From the NCBI GenBank assembly GCA_903887275.1, contig CAISPD010000215.1:1-45081 (forward strand): 45,081 nucleotides of DNA, given 5' to 3'. A model generated the notes under the pieces. The model saw only the letters and a program-made list of their open reading frames with translations. It was not told the origin of the DNA and searched no databases. Below, piece by piece: positions 4,641 through 31,850 of this stretch. Positions within the stretch are counted from its first letter, which is position 1. Each line of letters begins with the position of its first letter. A program made the translations under genes and the position numbers. This DNA comes from an uncultured Mucilaginibacter sp. (GTDB lineage: Bacteria; Bacteroidota; Bacteroidia; Sphingobacteriales; Sphingobacteriaceae).

Positions 4641-5800
4641 AGGCACTAAACCAGCTAAAAACCTTTCAGAGAATTTTAGGCGATTACCCGGCAGAAACGC
4701 CTTTGTACAAATTTTTGCCTGGTTTCTTCCGCCAGAACAAACAAATGGGCTCTACCGACAGGAAGGTTGCAGGCAGACTTATATACAACTACTTCAGGCT
4801 GGGCAAGGCAATTGACAATACAGCCATCGAAGAACGCCTGGTTGTAGCCGAATTTCTGTGCAATAGCCAGTCGAATTCATTTCTCCAGCACTTTCAGCCC
4901 GAATGGGCCTTATCTACAGGAGCTACTATTGACGAAAAAATAAAACTGGTAAAAATTGCCTATCCGGATTTTAAACTGACGGATGTTTTTCCATGGACAA
5001 ATAGCCTCTCGGAAGGAATAGACAAAAACGCATTTCTGGAATCATTTTTTGTTCAACCAGATCTGTTCATTCGCGTAAGGAACAACTACGAGAACCTGGT
5101 AAAAGGCACCTTGGTAAAAGAAAATATTGTCTTTAAAGATGAGGGCGACAATTGCTTTTCGCTCCCCAACGGAACCCGGCTCGACATACTTTTCCCGCAG
5201 CAAAACTGGTTCGAAGTACAAGACCACTCATCACAGCAAACGGCAAAATGGTTCAAACCTAAGTCTGGTGAAGCCTGGTGGGATGCCTGTGCTGCTTCGG
5301 GAGGCAAGTCGCTCCTGTTGCACGAGCAACAACATGACATTAAATTAGTGGTATCTGATATTCGCGAATCTGTGTTGTCAAATCTCGACGAGCGTTTCCG
5401 GAATGCTGGGCTTTTACGATATCAGAAAAAGATATTGGATCTCACACAAAATATAGATCCCGAACTTCATAACTACGAGTTTGACGGTATCATACTTGAT
5501 GCACCTTGCAGCGGTTCCGGCACCTGGGGTCGCACACCGGAAATGATCAGTCAGTTTCAGTCGCAAAAAATTCGCTTTTTCCAGCAGCTGCAACAAAATA
5601 TTGCCGCAAATGTCATCAAATACCTAAAACCCGGGAAGCCATTGATCTATATAACCTGCTCGGTTTTTAAAGAAGAAAATGAAGATGTGGTTAAGTTTAT
5701 AGTTAAAGAATTAGGCATGAAACTGGAAGAACAAACTTTACTTAAAGGCTATCAGCATAAGGCGGATACGATGTTTGTTGCGAGGTTTGTTAAGATTTGA
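4637..5800 (+). CDS. RsmB/NOP-type RNA cytosine-C5 methyltransferase
   Basis: A SAM-dependent enzyme predicted to methylate cytosine C5 in RNA, probably ribosomal. It has 387 residues: an N-terminal helical region with the Fmu/Sun-like motif PLYKFLPGFFR near residue 20, then a Rossmann methyltransferase domain. The SAM-binding loop is WDACAASGGKSLLL, motif IV is DAPCSGSGTWGR with C291, and motif VI is TCSVFKEENEDVV with C341. The two cysteines match the release and nucleophile pair of RsmB-family enzymes. It lacks the NusB-like domain of full-length RsmB, so the exact site modified (16S C967 or another) is uncertain. Start and upstream stop share ATGA, indicating translational coupling. Confidence 0.9.
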   Translation: MKALNQLKTFQRILGDYPAETPLYKFLPGFFRQNKQMGSTDRKVAGRLIYNYFRLGKAIDNTAIEERLVVAEFLCNSQSNSFLQHFQPEWALSTGATIDEKIKLVKIAYPDFKLTDVFPWTNSLSEGIDKNAFLESFFVQPDLFIRVRNNYENLVKGTLVKENIVFKDEGDNCFSLPNGTRLDILFPQQNWFEVQDHSSQQTAKWFKPKSGEAWWDACAASGGKSLLLHEQQHDIKLVVSDIRESVLSNLDERFRNAGLLRYQKKILDLTQNIDPELHNYEFDGIILDAPCSGSGTWGRTPEMISQFQSQKIRFFQQLQQNIAANVIKYLKPGKPLIYITCSVFKEENEDVVKFIVKELGMKLEEQTLLKGYQHKADTMFVARFVKI

Positions 5801-5861
5801 AAGTTCTTCAATTTGAAAATTTGGCCAAAACATTCATTGTAAAGGACTTCGGCTAAAGGGT

Positions 5862-5925
5862 AGCCCCTACGGGGCAAAATGCCATTTTCGCTTTTTTTCT
5901 ACAAAGGGGTTGCCCCTATGGGGCA
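5862..5925 (+). repeat. Left two-unit hairpin module
   Basis: Two forward units (core GGGT(A)GCCCCTACGGGGC, then GGGGTTGCCCCTATGGGGC) are joined by AAAATGCCATTTTCGC plus a T-run. An almost identical arrangement lies at 7609-7676, to the right of the transposase. The second unit is also the beginning of the first 111-bp repeat. Confidence 0.85.
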
Positions 5926-6207
5926 TTTTTGGATTTTGTCTATTGATATGCCAGACTAACTGTGATAAATATTATTGCGACTGGGCAAAATATCATTTTC
6001 GCTTTTTTTCTACAAAGGGGTTGCCCCTACGGGGCATTTTTGGATTTTGTCTATTGATATGCCAGACTAACTGTGATAAATATTACTGCGACTGGGCAAA
6101 ATATCATTTTCGCTTTTTTTCTACAAAGGGGTTGCCCCTACGGGGCATTTTTGGATTTTGACTATTGATATGCCAGACTAACTGTGATAAATATTACTGC
6201 GACTGGG
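5899..6207 (+). repeat. 111-bp tandem repeat, about 2.8 copies
   Basis: Units begin at 5899, 6010 and 6121 with CTACAAAGGGGTTGCCCCTA, so the period is exactly 111 bp. Each contains the hairpin core, a segment with ATATGCCAGACTAACTGTG, and a T-run ending before the next unit. Differences between copies are single bases. The third copy breaks off at about 6207, where the array flips orientation. Because 111 is a multiple of three, an open frame runs through the units; it is a by-product of the repeat. Confidence 0.95.
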
Positions 6208-7062
6208 CTAACCTTTGTAACATCCGTAGAAGCAAGAAAAAAAATGCCCTATAGGGGCTACCCCTTTGTAACATCCCCTCAGAAGTACCAAAAAAAAAGA
6301 ATTGCCCCATAGGGGCTACCCCTTTGTAACATCCGTAGAAGCAAGAAAAAAAATGCCCTGTAGGGGCTACCTCTTTGTACCCCCCCCTCAGAAATACCAA
6401 AAAAGGATTGCCCCATAGGCGCTACCCCTTTGTAACATCCGTAGAAGCAAGAAAAAAAAATGCCCCATAGGGGCTACCCTTTTGTAACCCCCAGAAGTAC
6501 CAAAAAAAGAATTGCCCCCTAGGGGCTACCCCTTTGTAACATCCCGGGGAAGCAAGGAAAAATAATGCCCAGTAGGGGCTACCACTTTGTAACATCCCGA
6601 GGAAGCATGGAAAAAAAATGCCCTGTAGGGGCTAGCCCTTTGCACCCCCCCCCTCAGAAATACCAAAAAAGGGTTGCCCCATAGGGGCTACCCCTTTGTA
6701 ACATCGCCTCAGAAATACCAAAAAAGGATTGCCCCGTAGGGGCTACCCCTTTGTAACATCCGTAGTACCAAGAAAAAAATGCCCCATAGGGGCTACCCCT
6801 TTGTAACATCCCCTCAGAAATACCAAAAAAGGATTGCCCCGTAGGGGCTACCCCTTTGTAACCCCCAGAAGTACCAAAAAAAAGAATTGCCCCATAGGGT
6901 CTACCCCTTTGTAACATCCGTAGATGCAAGAAAAAAAATGCCCCGTAAGGGCTACCACTTTGTAACCCCCAGAAGTACCCAAAAAAAGGATTGCCCCACA
7001 GGGTCTACCCCTTTGTAACATCCCGGGGAAGCAAAGAAAAAAATGCCCCCTAGGGGCTACCC
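6208..7062 (-). repeat. 17-unit head-to-tail hairpin array with two interleaved spacer types
   Basis: The consensus on the + strand is TGCCCC(A/G)TAGGGGCTACC followed by CCTTTGTAAC, repeated about every 52 bp. The first (about 6208) and last (about 7044-7062) copies are degenerate or shortened. Spacers fall into two types: A, with CATCCGTAGAAGCAAG or CATCCCGGGGAAGCAAG, and B, with CCCTCAGAAGTACC or CCCCAGAAGTACC, each followed by an A-run. A and B alternate over units 1-6 and again over units 13-16, so the higher-order unit there is about 105 bp. Orientation is opposite to the 111-bp repeats. Confidence 0.93.
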
Positions 7063-7092
7063 TTGACTCGATATGTTTTTTTGCTAAATTTG
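7063..7092 (+). promoter_or_regulatory. Transposase promoter
   Basis: TTG at 7063-7065, a 19-nt spacer and TAAATTTG at 7085-7092 fit the Bacteroidota promoter pattern TTG-N(17-23)-TAnnTTTG. The -33 element starts directly after the last hairpin unit. The predicted transcript start lies roughly 10-15 nt before the ATG at 7110. Confidence 0.6.
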
Positions 7093-7109
7093 GATATAAC
7101 CTTATCGCT

Positions 7110-7577
7110 ATGGCTAATACCTATACACAATTATATATCCACTGTGTTTTTGCAGTTAAATATCGAAAGGCAGTTATTCATACCTCATGGGAAGATCGCC
7201 TGCATAAATACATTACCGGAACTATACAAAAAAACGGGCATAAACTTTTAGCAATAAATTCTGCCCCCGACCATTTGCATTTATTTGTCGGACTTAATCC
7301 CAAACAATCTATATCTGATATGATGCGCCTTGTAAAAGGCGACAGTTCCGAATTTGTGAACAAAGAAAGATTCACTCAATCAAAATTTCAATGGCAGGAA
7401 GGCTTCGGAGCGTTTAGTAATAGTCGCTCACAAATAGATAGTGTCGTTAAATATATTTTAAACCAAAAACAACATCATTCAAAAAAGACCTTCCATCAGG
7501 AATATCTGGAAATTTTAAAAGACTACGCTGTCAATTTCGACGAAAAATATCTATTCCACGAATTGTTGGATAGTTGA
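7110..7577 (+). CDS. IS200/RAYT-like Y1 (HUH) transposase
   Basis: A 155-residue single-domain nuclease of the Y1-transposase family, which cuts single-stranded DNA next to hairpins through a 5'-phosphotyrosine link. The metal-binding HUH motif is H55-L-H57 in APDHLHLFVGL, and the catalytic tyrosine is Y115 in VVKYILNQKQHH, with Q119 in the usual place. The N-terminal strand YIHCVFAVKYRK and the segment LVKGDSSEFVN are also family-typical. No tnpB is beside it. It reads intact, not broken. The neighbouring hairpin array and flanking inverted units resemble REP-associated tyrosine transposases, which are usually domesticated single-copy genes; an ordinary IS200-type element is the alternative. 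Confidence 0.92.
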   Translation: MANTYTQLYIHCVFAVKYRKAVIHTSWEDRLHKYITGTIQKNGHKLLAINSAPDHLHLFVGLNPKQSISDMMRLVKGDSSEFVNKERFTQSKFQWQEGFGAFSNSRSQIDSVVKYILNQKQHHSKKTFHQEYLEILKDYAVNFDEKYLFHELLDS

Positions 7578-7599
7578 TAATAAAAAAGGATTGGCGTCG

Positions 7600-7676
7600 A
7601 CAAAGGGGTTGCCGCTACGGGGCAAAATGCCATTTTCGCTTTTTTTTTCTACAAAGGGGTTGCCCCGATGGGGCGT
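7600..7676 (+). repeat. Right two-unit hairpin module
   Basis: Two forward units, with GGGGTTGCCGCTACGGGG and then GGGGTTGCCCCGATGGGG, are joined by AAAATGCCATTTTCGC and a T-run, copying the module at 5862-5925. The units are inverted relative to the last array unit at 7044-7062, so the transposase gene sits between inverted hairpins. The DNA to about 7735 resembles a decayed 111-bp unit tail. Confidence 0.85.
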
Positions 7677-7794
7677 TTTATAGTTTTGTATAACAAGCCA
7701 AAACGTTATTCTAATTATACCGAAAATTCATTATCCAGCTCCATCTACATCCTATTTCCGAACTGAACCAACGGCAAAATAGCCAATTTTCAGA

Positions 7795-8364
7795 TTAAAG
7801 GTGCGTATTACTCCGGAATAGTTTGATCGCTATAGCAAGCAATATCACCCCAAAAGCTTTTCGAAGGATATTCAGACCGGATTTACCCAATAACCTCTCA
7901 AGCCATTTAACATTCTTAAGCACCAGGTATACGATGATCGTATTTAATGTGATGCCAACTACGATATTTTGGGTTTCGTATTGCGATTTTAGAGAAAGCA
8001 GGGTGGTCATCGTTCCGGCACCTGCTATCAAAGGAAATGCAAGTGGCACAATAGAAGCTGTTTCAGCCGTTTCCTCGCGAAAAAACTTGATACCTAATAT
8101 CATCTCCATTGCAATAAAAAAAATCACTAATGACCCTGCAATGGCAAATGAAGCCACATCTATACCAATCAGACTCAGCAGGCCATTTCCTGCGTAAAGG
8201 AAACCTACCATCAACACCAAAACTGCGATAGAAGCCTTTTCGGATTGAATATGTCCGGTTTTTTGGCGCAGTTCGATAATGACTGGGATAGCGCCTATAA
8301 TATCGATGATAGCAAATAGGATCATCGTTACCGATATGATCTCTTTTAAATTGAAAGGATTCAT
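7795..8364 (-). CDS. MarC family integral membrane protein
   Basis: A 189-residue hydrophobic protein with about six membrane segments, matching the MarC/UPF0056 family in length and in its N-terminal pattern (VTMILFAIIDIIGAIPVI), the SIAVLVLMVGF helix and the central AIAGSLVIFFIAMEMILG helix. The family was once tied to multiple antibiotic resistance in E. coli, but that link is not supported for MarC itself; the transported substrate is unknown. The gene lies alone on the minus strand, separated from the upstream permease gene by a strong terminator, so it is probably expressed from its own promoter in 8365-8483. Confidence 0.9.
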   Translation of the reverse strand: MNPFNLKEIISVTMILFAIIDIIGAIPVIIELRQKTGHIQSEKASIAVLVLMVGFLYAGNGLLSLIGIDVASFAIAGSLVIFFIAMEMILGIKFFREETAETASIVPLAFPLIAGAGTMTTLLSLKSQYETQNIVVGITLNTIIVYLVLKNVKWLERLLGKSGLNILRKAFGVILLAIAIKLFRSNTHL

Positions 8365-21661: not shown

Positions 21662-22948
21662 ATGAAAAAAATAATTTTTATTTGCTTTACGGTAATATCC
21701 GTTATTGCCAGGGCCCAAACCGAGCCACAGGCTTACAATGCGGCGGTTGGAAAATTCACTGCATTTTACAACAGCAATAAACCAGATAGCATTTACAAAC
21801 TTTTTGGCGGCCCTATGAAAGCCGCATTAAGTCCCGATGCCTGGAAAGCAACAGCATCACAGCTTAAATCGCAATTGGGCACTTTACAGCAAAATACTTT
21901 TGTTAGTTATCAGGCCCCGGTTGCCTTTTATACCTCAGCATTTCAGAATGCCAGTTTATCGATGAGTATCTCGCTCGATAAGGACAATCTTATCGTAGGA
22001 CTTCTTTTTAAACCGATCGTACAGTCCGACCCTGTTGCCGATAAACCTTTTGACCCATCGTTGGTCGAGTCGCCAATAACCCAAAAAATAGCATCGGGTG
22101 TTATCGTTGGTACTTTAACTACCCCTAAAGACATGACCGGCAAAATTCCGGTTGTGCTGATCATAGCAGGCTCGGGGCCCACCGACCGCAATGGCAACAA
22201 TTTAAAAATGGATTTAAATACAAATGCCTACCGGGAATTAGCAGAACAACTTGGCAAAAACGGCATTGCAAGCCTGCGCTATGATAAACGGGCCATAGGC
22301 GCAAGTCAAACTACCAATAAAGAATCTAACCTGCGTTTTGATGATTATGTTGACGATGCTGTGGGATGGATACAAATACTTAATGACGATCAGCGCTTTT
22401 CAAAGATTATTGTAATTGGCCACAGTGAAGGTTCGCTGGTAGGTATGCTGGCATGCCGTGATCAGCCGGTGAAAGGCTTTATATCTTTAGCTGGTGCCGG
22501 CGAAAGAGCCGATAAGATACTCACTGATCAGCTAAAAACGCGTTCCCAAACCATACAGGACAATTTTAAAACACTGATAGATAGCATGAAAAGGGGTAAA
22601 ACGATTGACAATATCGACCCCAGTCTTTGGTTTATTGCAAGACCAACTATCCAACATTACCTGATGTCGTGGTTCAGGTACGATCCACAAAGGTTTATTC
22701 ATTTGGTAAAGGCACCAACATTGATCATCCAGGGTAATACTGATTTGCAGGTGAGTACCGACAATGCCGAAAAACTCAAAAAGGGGAAATCGGATGCACA
22801 GTTGCTTATCATTCCAAATATGAACCATATTTTGAAAGAAGCTCCTGCCGACAGGGATCAAAACCTGGCGACCTACAATAAACCCGATTTGCCGCTCAAA
22901 GCTGAATTGGTGCCGGCGATCGTTAAGTTTATCAATGGGATCAATTAA
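21662..22948 (+). CDS. Secreted alpha/beta hydrolase with DUF3887-like N-terminal domain
   Basis: A 428-residue exported serine hydrolase. The signal peptide is MKKIIFICFTVISVIARA. Residues about 25-130 look like the DUF3887 domain (YNAAVGKFTAFYNSNKPDSI), which often precedes hydrolases in Bacteroidota. The alpha/beta fold follows: IAGSGPTDRNGNN near the oxyanion region, nucleophile S255 in GHSEGS, and a C-terminal histidine in IPNMNHILKE; D in IIQGNTDLQV is the likely acid. Substrates may be peptides or esters; none is shown. The ATG at 21662 starts the signal peptide and is preferred over an ATG at 21578, which would add a non-homologous leader. It is followed by 37-bp tandem repeats. Confidence 0.88.
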   Translation: MKKIIFICFTVISVIARAQTEPQAYNAAVGKFTAFYNSNKPDSIYKLFGGPMKAALSPDAWKATASQLKSQLGTLQQNTFVSYQAPVAFYTSAFQNASLSMSISLDKDNLIVGLLFKPIVQSDPVADKPFDPSLVESPITQKIASGVIVGTLTTPKDMTGKIPVVLIIAGSGPTDRNGNNLKMDLNTNAYRELAEQLGKNGIASLRYDKRAIGASQTTNKESNLRFDDYVDDAVGWIQILNDDQRFSKIIVIGHSEGSLVGMLACRDQPVKGFISLAGAGERADKILTDQLKTRSQTIQDNFKTLIDSMKRGKTIDNIDPSLWFIARPTIQHYLMSWFRYDPQRFIHLVKAPTLIIQGNTDLQVSTDNAEKLKKGKSDAQLLIIPNMNHILKEAPADRDQNLATYNKPDLPLKAELVPAIVKFINGIN

Positions 22949-23100
22949 ATGCGGAATTCGGAATGTCAATTGCGGAATGATTTGAATGCGGAGTTCGGAA
23001 TGTCAATTGCGGAATGAATTGAATGCGGAGTTCGGAATGTCAATTGCGGAATGATTTAAATGCAAAGTGCGGAATGTCAATTGCGGGATGATTTAGATGC
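22948..23100. repeat. 37-bp tandem repeat, four copies plus a fragment
   Basis: Units start at 22948, 22985, 23022 and 23059 with AATGC(G/A)(G/A)AGTGCGG-like sequence, each containing GGAATGTCAATTGCGG. A partial fifth begins at 23096. The repeat abuts the hydrolase stop codon; its first bases overlap it. No open frame of note. Confidence 0.93.
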
Positions 23101-31739: not shown

Positions 31740-31753
31740 CATTCTTTTTTTGA

Positions 31754-31850
31754 CATTGCGAGGAACGAAGCAATGCCTTTCCTTTTTTGTCATTGCGAGG
31801 AACGAAGCAATGCCTTTCCTTTTTTGTCATTGCGAGGAACGAAGCAATCG
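31754..31850. repeat. 37-bp tandem repeat, about 2.6 copies
   Basis: CATTGCGAGGAACGAAGCAA starts at 31754, 31791 and 31828, an exact 37-bp period, with the linker TGCCTTTCCTTTTTTGT. The third copy merges into the MITE-like element. Confidence 0.95.

Follow-up and report, generated by a model that had tools for sequence, protein, structure and literature searches.

We analysed a 45,081-nucleotide stretch of DNA from an uncultured Mucilaginibacter sp. (contig CAISPD010000215.1, positions 1 to 45,081 of the forward strand; hereafter the window), part of a genome assembly of 3.9 Mb in 277 contigs (GCA_903887275.1). The window carries 22 copies of a short hairpin unit, 16 on the minus strand and six on the plus strand, which lie on both sides of an intact Y1/HuH transposase gene (7110-7577, plus strand). 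The encoded protein of 155 amino acids has the motifs DHLH, WQ and YILNQKQHH and matches PF01797 at 2.4e-29. The array is bordered by an RsmB/F-like methyltransferase gene to the left and by marC to the right. Searching the whole genome for the unit pattern with up to three mismatches gave 27 matches, 22 of them in the window, against four for the reversed pattern, which places the array far beyond chance.

Two forms of the unit are present, a hairpin without a box (A) and a hairpin preceded by a CTAY box (B). Along the plus strand the order is one A and three B units (5857-6149), the 16 minus-strand units, the transposase gene, and a further A and B unit (7605-7677). The A-type unit of the left arm (5857-5876, plus strand) has the foot GTAG and no CTAY box. 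The B-type unit that follows (5895-5927, plus strand) scores 36.6 bits against the family model and consists of a CTAC box at 5899-5902, a 9-nt spacer and a stem formed by 5912-5916 and 5920-5924 around the loop TAT; those of the second and third 111-bp repeats (6006-6038 and 6117-6149, both plus strand) score 37.4 bits each. On the 3' side of the gene lie an A-type unit (7605-7624, plus strand) with the foot GTTG, CGAC in place of the box and one stem mismatch, and a B-type unit (7645-7677, plus strand; 32.9 bits) with a CTAC box and the loop GAT. The reverse arm (6243-7063, minus strand) holds its 16 units at a period of about 53 bp, with a TTAC box in 13, GTAG in 15 and an intact stem in eight; 14 of them score 14.0-32.5 bits and two were not found at E 1. 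Its gene-proximal unit (7044-7063) lies in an A-like position 46 bases from the start codon and has no box. The initial annotation of this DNA correctly noted that the arms differ in their feet: GTAG in 15 of the 16 minus-strand units, GTTG in five of the six on the plus strand and GTAG in the sixth. Stems are perfect in 13 of the 22 units and broken in nine, and within this array they are decaying.

The complete unit is a DNA hairpin with a 5-bp stem (6 bp in GTTG units), a 3-nt loop, mostly TAY, and a CTAY box 9 nt 5' of the stem, with the consensus TTT-CTAY-AAANAT(G/T)TN-(G/A)CYCC-TAY-GGRG(C/T). It emerged from comparison with related stretches, 80 of 133 being kept in a first scan. The density of perfect hairpins is 6.33 per kb within 1 kb of 81 transposase genes, compared with 0.77 further out and 0.32 in shuffled sequence (both strands). 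With repeated 5' contexts collapsed at each locus (978 oriented hairpins reduced to 828, from 78 loci), 150 of these 828 have CTAY at 9 nt ahead of the stem and no other spacing accounts for more than 14, and a motif-free scan returned TCTA as the fixed-distance tetramer common to most loci (50 of 78). The box, the strongest signal in the data, and the adjacent transposase gene were both missing from the initial annotation.

The stem pairs the second and third of the three blocks (GGGG, CCCC and GGGG) into which that annotation had divided the unit. To follow it across relatives, we aligned 97 of 197 B units, taking at most two stems per locus from 67 loci; the 96 distinct rows all have perfect stems. 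Because rows were chosen in this way their complete pairing is circular, and the evidence lies in the variety of the pairs: both sides have changed at all five pairs, with 102 double-changed cells, and covariation is 0.61 against 0.21 in shuffled and at most 0.13 in slid versions. The circularity also led us to make an anchor test that is blind to the stem (CTAY, n nt, 5 nt, TAY, 5 nt, with n from 4 to 15). At n = 9, 94 of the 211 sites near the genes carry a perfect 5-bp stem, drawn from 36 loci and comprising 16 different stems, whereas the remaining spacings yield none to three; at the same n of 9 the counts are 3/111 far from genes and 0/16 inside them. Within the array itself none of the changes that break the nine stems is compensated.

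Comparison of the feet alters the standing of GTAG, which had been described as a guide tetranucleotide directly preceding the hairpin. Its last G is the first base of the stem and covaries with its partner (G-C 58, A-T 31, T-A 5 and C-G 2 among the 96 rows), and GTAG therefore overlaps the hairpin instead of tagging it from outside. Nor is it conserved through the family: with loci weighted, position -1 is close to even (A.30, C.27, G.24, T.20), with T at.74 in position -2. Feet near the 81 genes most often read GTAG (83 in 17 loci), then GTCG (59 in 19), and GTAG is a local variant of a looser foot whose A varies. Units with GTTG are not a lesser version either, as four of the five plus-strand GTTG units keep both CTAC and an intact stem, at 32.9-37.4 bits.

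Strict, boxed B units are found near 67 of the 81 genes. The boxless A hairpin precedes B, the distance from a hairpin to the next B on the same strand peaking at 49-52 nt. Its stem begins a few nucleotides from the stop codon (+4 to +6) in 10 loci, and on the other strand an A hairpin lies some 22-45 nt before the start codon in 11. A perfect B unit flanks the gene both left and right within 1 kb at 33 loci; at 29 of these the two closest units are mirror images that point away from the gene, at two they lie on the same strand and at two they point inwards. The typical bracket around genes of the clade is B< A< tnp A> B>, over about 0.6 kb. In genome G051 two paralogues (80% alike over 651 bp) match from the left B hairpin to the right B hairpin, with nothing recognisable in common beyond them in the alignment, which takes in about 170 nt on each side of the gene; a pair in a second genome (G005; 77.5% over 605 bp) shows the same pattern. 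Within-genome pairs were 65-80% alike in the loci compared, and near-identical multiple copies were not among them. The window's own genome holds two copies of a second such transposase, at L124 (1-470) and L125 (1-346; G000:C112 and C80); over 363 bp they agree at 92.6%. They are 50-52% alike to the window's transposase, and both lie at contig edges.

The same ends also occur without the gene. In two genomes (G031 and G013) 13 of the 20 dispersed copies read are, by eye, simple B< A< A> B> elements of about 170 bp. Where it could be measured, the stretch shared with at least three other copies continues beyond the outer foot of the terminal B for 2-30 nt; in one copy it stops 18 nt short of it. 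Further hairpin arrays lie in the window's genome at L126 (1711-2050), L127 (1-690) and L128 (1354-1650; G000:C131, C237 and C76), where no Y1 gene was seen in the stretches read; some of their A-type stems have one mismatch (GGCACC-TAC-GGAGCC).

Units and gene are associated across the genus. In 61 Mucilaginibacter genomes, scored gene-positive at E < 1e-40 (a fragmented copy in G019 counting as absent), units occur in 34 of 35 with the gene (median at least 28) and in 13 of 26 without it (median at least 0.5; Fisher 1.7e-5, kinship not removed). Among genomes at least 90% complete the figures are 26/26 and 11/24, again with kinship left in. Counts with the Mucilaginibacter-type unit model (R2), which was built partly from loci of the tested genomes, reach at least 106 copies per genome; they are lower bounds, based on no more than 71 scored candidates in each genome. 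Distances between units and between proteins are correlated (Mantel r 0.51, p 0.001, 65 loci). Beyond the clade we used a comparison set of 20 loci of distant Y1 genes, hand-picked from matches of 32-38% identity, in which B units occur once; these loci have the same Y...Q..HH motif, and the test accordingly addresses the clade and not the subclass. In a tree of 98 proteins a branch with support 100/99 and length 1.05 separates the 19 unit-less comparison loci from the other 79; three loci with frames broken as translated (L065, L066 and L068) were excluded from both the tree and the Mantel test. The sole comparison locus with units is on a long branch of unsure place and groups with the 79. 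With units at 66 of 79 proteins on one side of this well-supported branch and at 0/19 on the other, the hairpins mark one clade within a published motif.

The window protein scores 81.8 bits against the IS200/IS605 model NF033573 (cut-off 55), and both the Y1/HuH domain and the hairpins at the two element ends expected of an IS200/IS605 Y1 system are present. Solved structures related by sequence include the ISHp608 transposase (2a6m), the best match being 2xm3 (E 5.6e-9), presumably the ISDra2 transposase. Its nearest named relatives are from Mucilaginibacter. The motif Y---Q--HH is present in the window protein and at 76 of 80 homologous loci; of the four exceptions three are broken in the frame read and one has YILNQPENH. 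Judged by sequence, DHLH, WQ and YILNQKQHH match what Quentin et al. 2018 (PMC6006769) give as the signature of TnpAY1 subclass 1.2, a subclass with 'no' in the repetitive extragenic palindrome (REP) column of their Table 1 and, according to their conclusion, without shared insertion sequence (IS) properties. Their automatic search required a foot of GTAG or GTGG, at a distance of 0-2 nt from a basal stem of 7-20, and from these rules the absence of the present hairpins in that table is to be expected, the manual inspection also included in the search notwithstanding. The units of the clade qualify that table entry. We found no description of hairpin ends for subclass 1.2 in a literature search that covered titles and the openings of abstracts, subscription journals being mostly uncovered.

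The gene lies near the methyltransferase gene and/or marC in the window and at L044, L045, L046 and L056. Compared with L056, its nearest relative, from a sibling species, the window has 10% synonymous differences in the transposase gene and 63% in marC. The stretch that is 96% alike (518/540 columns; window 7049-7596) starts at the last reverse hairpin and stops shortly before the first forward one. A transposase segment far closer than marC, with its edges at hairpins, suggests that the segment was recently exchanged or re-inserted with the hairpins as its limits; an artefact of binning could also account for the likeness. A duplication in a hairpin flank distinguishes three Lacihabitans contigs (L098, L101 and L104) whose overlaps are 99-100% alike. 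They were set aside as independent copies, as they look like one region in several array versions, and the length of an array may differ inside a single assembly. Further tandem repeats lie in the window at 31742-31848, 22945-23100 and 1043-1217, including 37-bp units with GTCATTGCGAGGAACGAAGCAATG.

Taking the hairpin with its fixed spacing and varied stems together with the gene link, mirrored ends, shared segments and dispersal, we consider that the array is probably a local accumulation of end units from an IS200-like element, which would serve as single-strand recognition and processing sites for the adjacent transposase. The neighbouring Y1 enzyme would most likely bind the hairpin on an exposed strand, for example during replication, and would cut in or close to the CTAY box. 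For TnpAREP enzymes PMC8266576 describes cleavage at a CT dinucleotide on the 5' or the 3' side of the hairpin, and since CTAY also holds a CT this is a natural candidate for the cut. The same ends without the gene form the dispersed copies of about 170 bp, and the tandem arms would have grown through transposase action rather than slippage.

Several observations weigh against this explanation. A strict B unit is absent at 14 of the 81 loci. Outward-pointing B units number 117 among all 197, against 80 that face the gene, so that orientation inside the arrays is mixed. The genome-wide association ignores kinship and counts the units at the gene itself, and 13 genomes have units without a detected gene. 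Compensated changes are absent inside the window array, where half of the reverse units have broken stems. In IS608 the foot picks the box by base complementarity, a rule that is not clearly visible in these units (best z 3.3, with one row per locus and kinship uncontrolled). A search for empty sites, comparing eight G031 sites with G013, found both flanks apart at seven (66-265 bp) and one flank only at the eighth, and no empty site or recent jump was seen among them. In M. dorajii (G055), moreover, 21 of 26 copies aligned on the A hairpin share a common frame with terminal repeats, an element of about 190-250 bp (loci L130-L160, for example L130, L146, L149 and L157) with ends, by eye, like CAGGGAAATCGC; four copies have a 10-bp target duplication, three found by script and one by eye. 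IS200-type enzymes are not known to insert in this way. Frame and duplications point to another transposase as the carrier, with the M. dorajii hairpins riding as cargo on a miniature element of a different transposon kind, and dispersal of the units is not wholly the work of the Y1 transposase itself.

Other explanations have to be set beside this one. The initial annotation proposed that block 2 pairs with either neighbour in two mutually exclusive hairpins, which might form a switch regulating recognition. Both can be drawn, the block 1-2 stem being perfect in 11 of the window's 22 units and the block 2-3 stem in 13, but the two-state design found no support in relatives, where block 1-2 pairs in 29.9% of cells against 29.4% in shuffles (96 distinct units). 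With each hairpin forced alone, DNA folding energies for three units are -4.2 to -5.2 kcal/mol for block 2-3, and the bare block 1-2 hairpin is weaker at -2.0 kcal/mol. The alternative can form on paper, since for one of the three (6778-6810) the best fold of the 33-nt piece holds block 1-2, extended by outer pairs (-5.9 against -5.2 kcal/mol). We find a switch scarcely credible, and a G run in the window species seems to have given rise to the block 1-2 hairpin as a by-product. Alternatively, the units could end transcription as intrinsic terminators or stabilise mRNA 3' ends where genes converge, and be linked to the transposase only secondarily. Terminator-like sites number 13 in 5700-7800 against 3.5 (standard deviation 1.7) in shuffles, a further point against our preferred explanation, and a T run follows the stem in all seven distinct perfect B units of the window. 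At other loci, however, it follows directly in 48 of 190 B units and further downstream in 50-67 of 190, which is not above background and disposes of a conserved terminator role; nor does a terminator predict a box at fixed distance or a link with one transposase clade. We therefore regard this explanation as unlikely.

The mirrored hairpins flanking a Y1 gene, the dispersed copies and the GTAG in the window would suit a canonical system of REPs and their RAYT (class 2) transposase, and the initial annotation was right to see REP-like hairpins, which prove to be tied to a Y1 transposase, though not in its details of GTAG and two hairpins. The protein, however, scores 30.9 bits against the RAYT model NF047646, below the cut-off of 80, and has Y---Q--HH in place of Y---NP, and on these grounds we rejected canonical RAYT membership; the 5-bp stems and loose feet also fall outside the GTAG or GTGG foot and 7-20 stem of the PMC6006769 search rules. 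A canonical REP/RAYT system is thus very unlikely. Short-repeat slippage is a more serious contender for the tandem arms, which would then be passive and without a present role for the transposase. It agrees with the many decayed units and with the tandem periods of 53 and 111 bp, and where the window has one A and three B units facing forward, a sibling genome carries a single A and a single B. Arm growth may indeed be slippage, a plausible if less favoured account, but one that covers arm length only and leaves the box, the covariation and the gene link unexplained.

End hairpins of IS200/IS605 elements typically lie on the same strand at left and right. The present elements resemble that group (IS608, ISDra2) in protein family, terminal hairpins and whole-element copies, and depart from it in the mirror-image arrangement of their nearest end hairpins (29/33 loci), their low copy number and their diverged copies. 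With REPtrons and REPINs and their TnpAREP (RAYT) enzymes, as described for E. coli, Stenotrophomonas and Marinomonas (PMC8266576), they share hairpins around a Y1 gene and dispersed copies, and differ in protein class, in the 5-bp stem, in a foot that is not GT[AG]G clade-wide and in having two hairpins per end. Like the GTAG-tagged REPs of Di Nocera 2013 (PMC3733652) the window units are GTAG-tagged stem-loops; that paper describes GTAG repeats in Proteobacteria, Cyanobacteria, Chloroflexi and PVC, and in the part consulted names Bacteroidetes only for CGTC repeats, said to be without a transposase. For Bacteroidetes, PMC6006769 gives REP-type structures in subclasses 2.4 and 2.6. With subclass 1.2 as presented there the clade has in common Y---Q--HH, the WQ of the window protein, a short protein and a mostly Bacteroidota distribution. 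Unlike that subclass as tabulated, without REPs, 67 of its 81 loci carry B units, and in a sister clade with the subclass 1.2 motif 19 of 20 loci have none. On balance we lean towards seeing this deep, mostly Bacteroidota Y1 clade as a single-strand system of its own, halfway between IS200 elements and REPtrons: one with double-hairpin, mirror-image ends (B< A< gene A> B>) and CTAY at 9 nt, which moves whole, sheds gene-less copies of about 170 bp and amplifies its end units beside a gene kept at one locus. The clade bears on how IS200-type jumping genes became resident REP-making enzymes: a clade on the IS200 side with REP-like mirrored and dispersed hairpins, next to a sister clade without them, allows that step to be compared directly.
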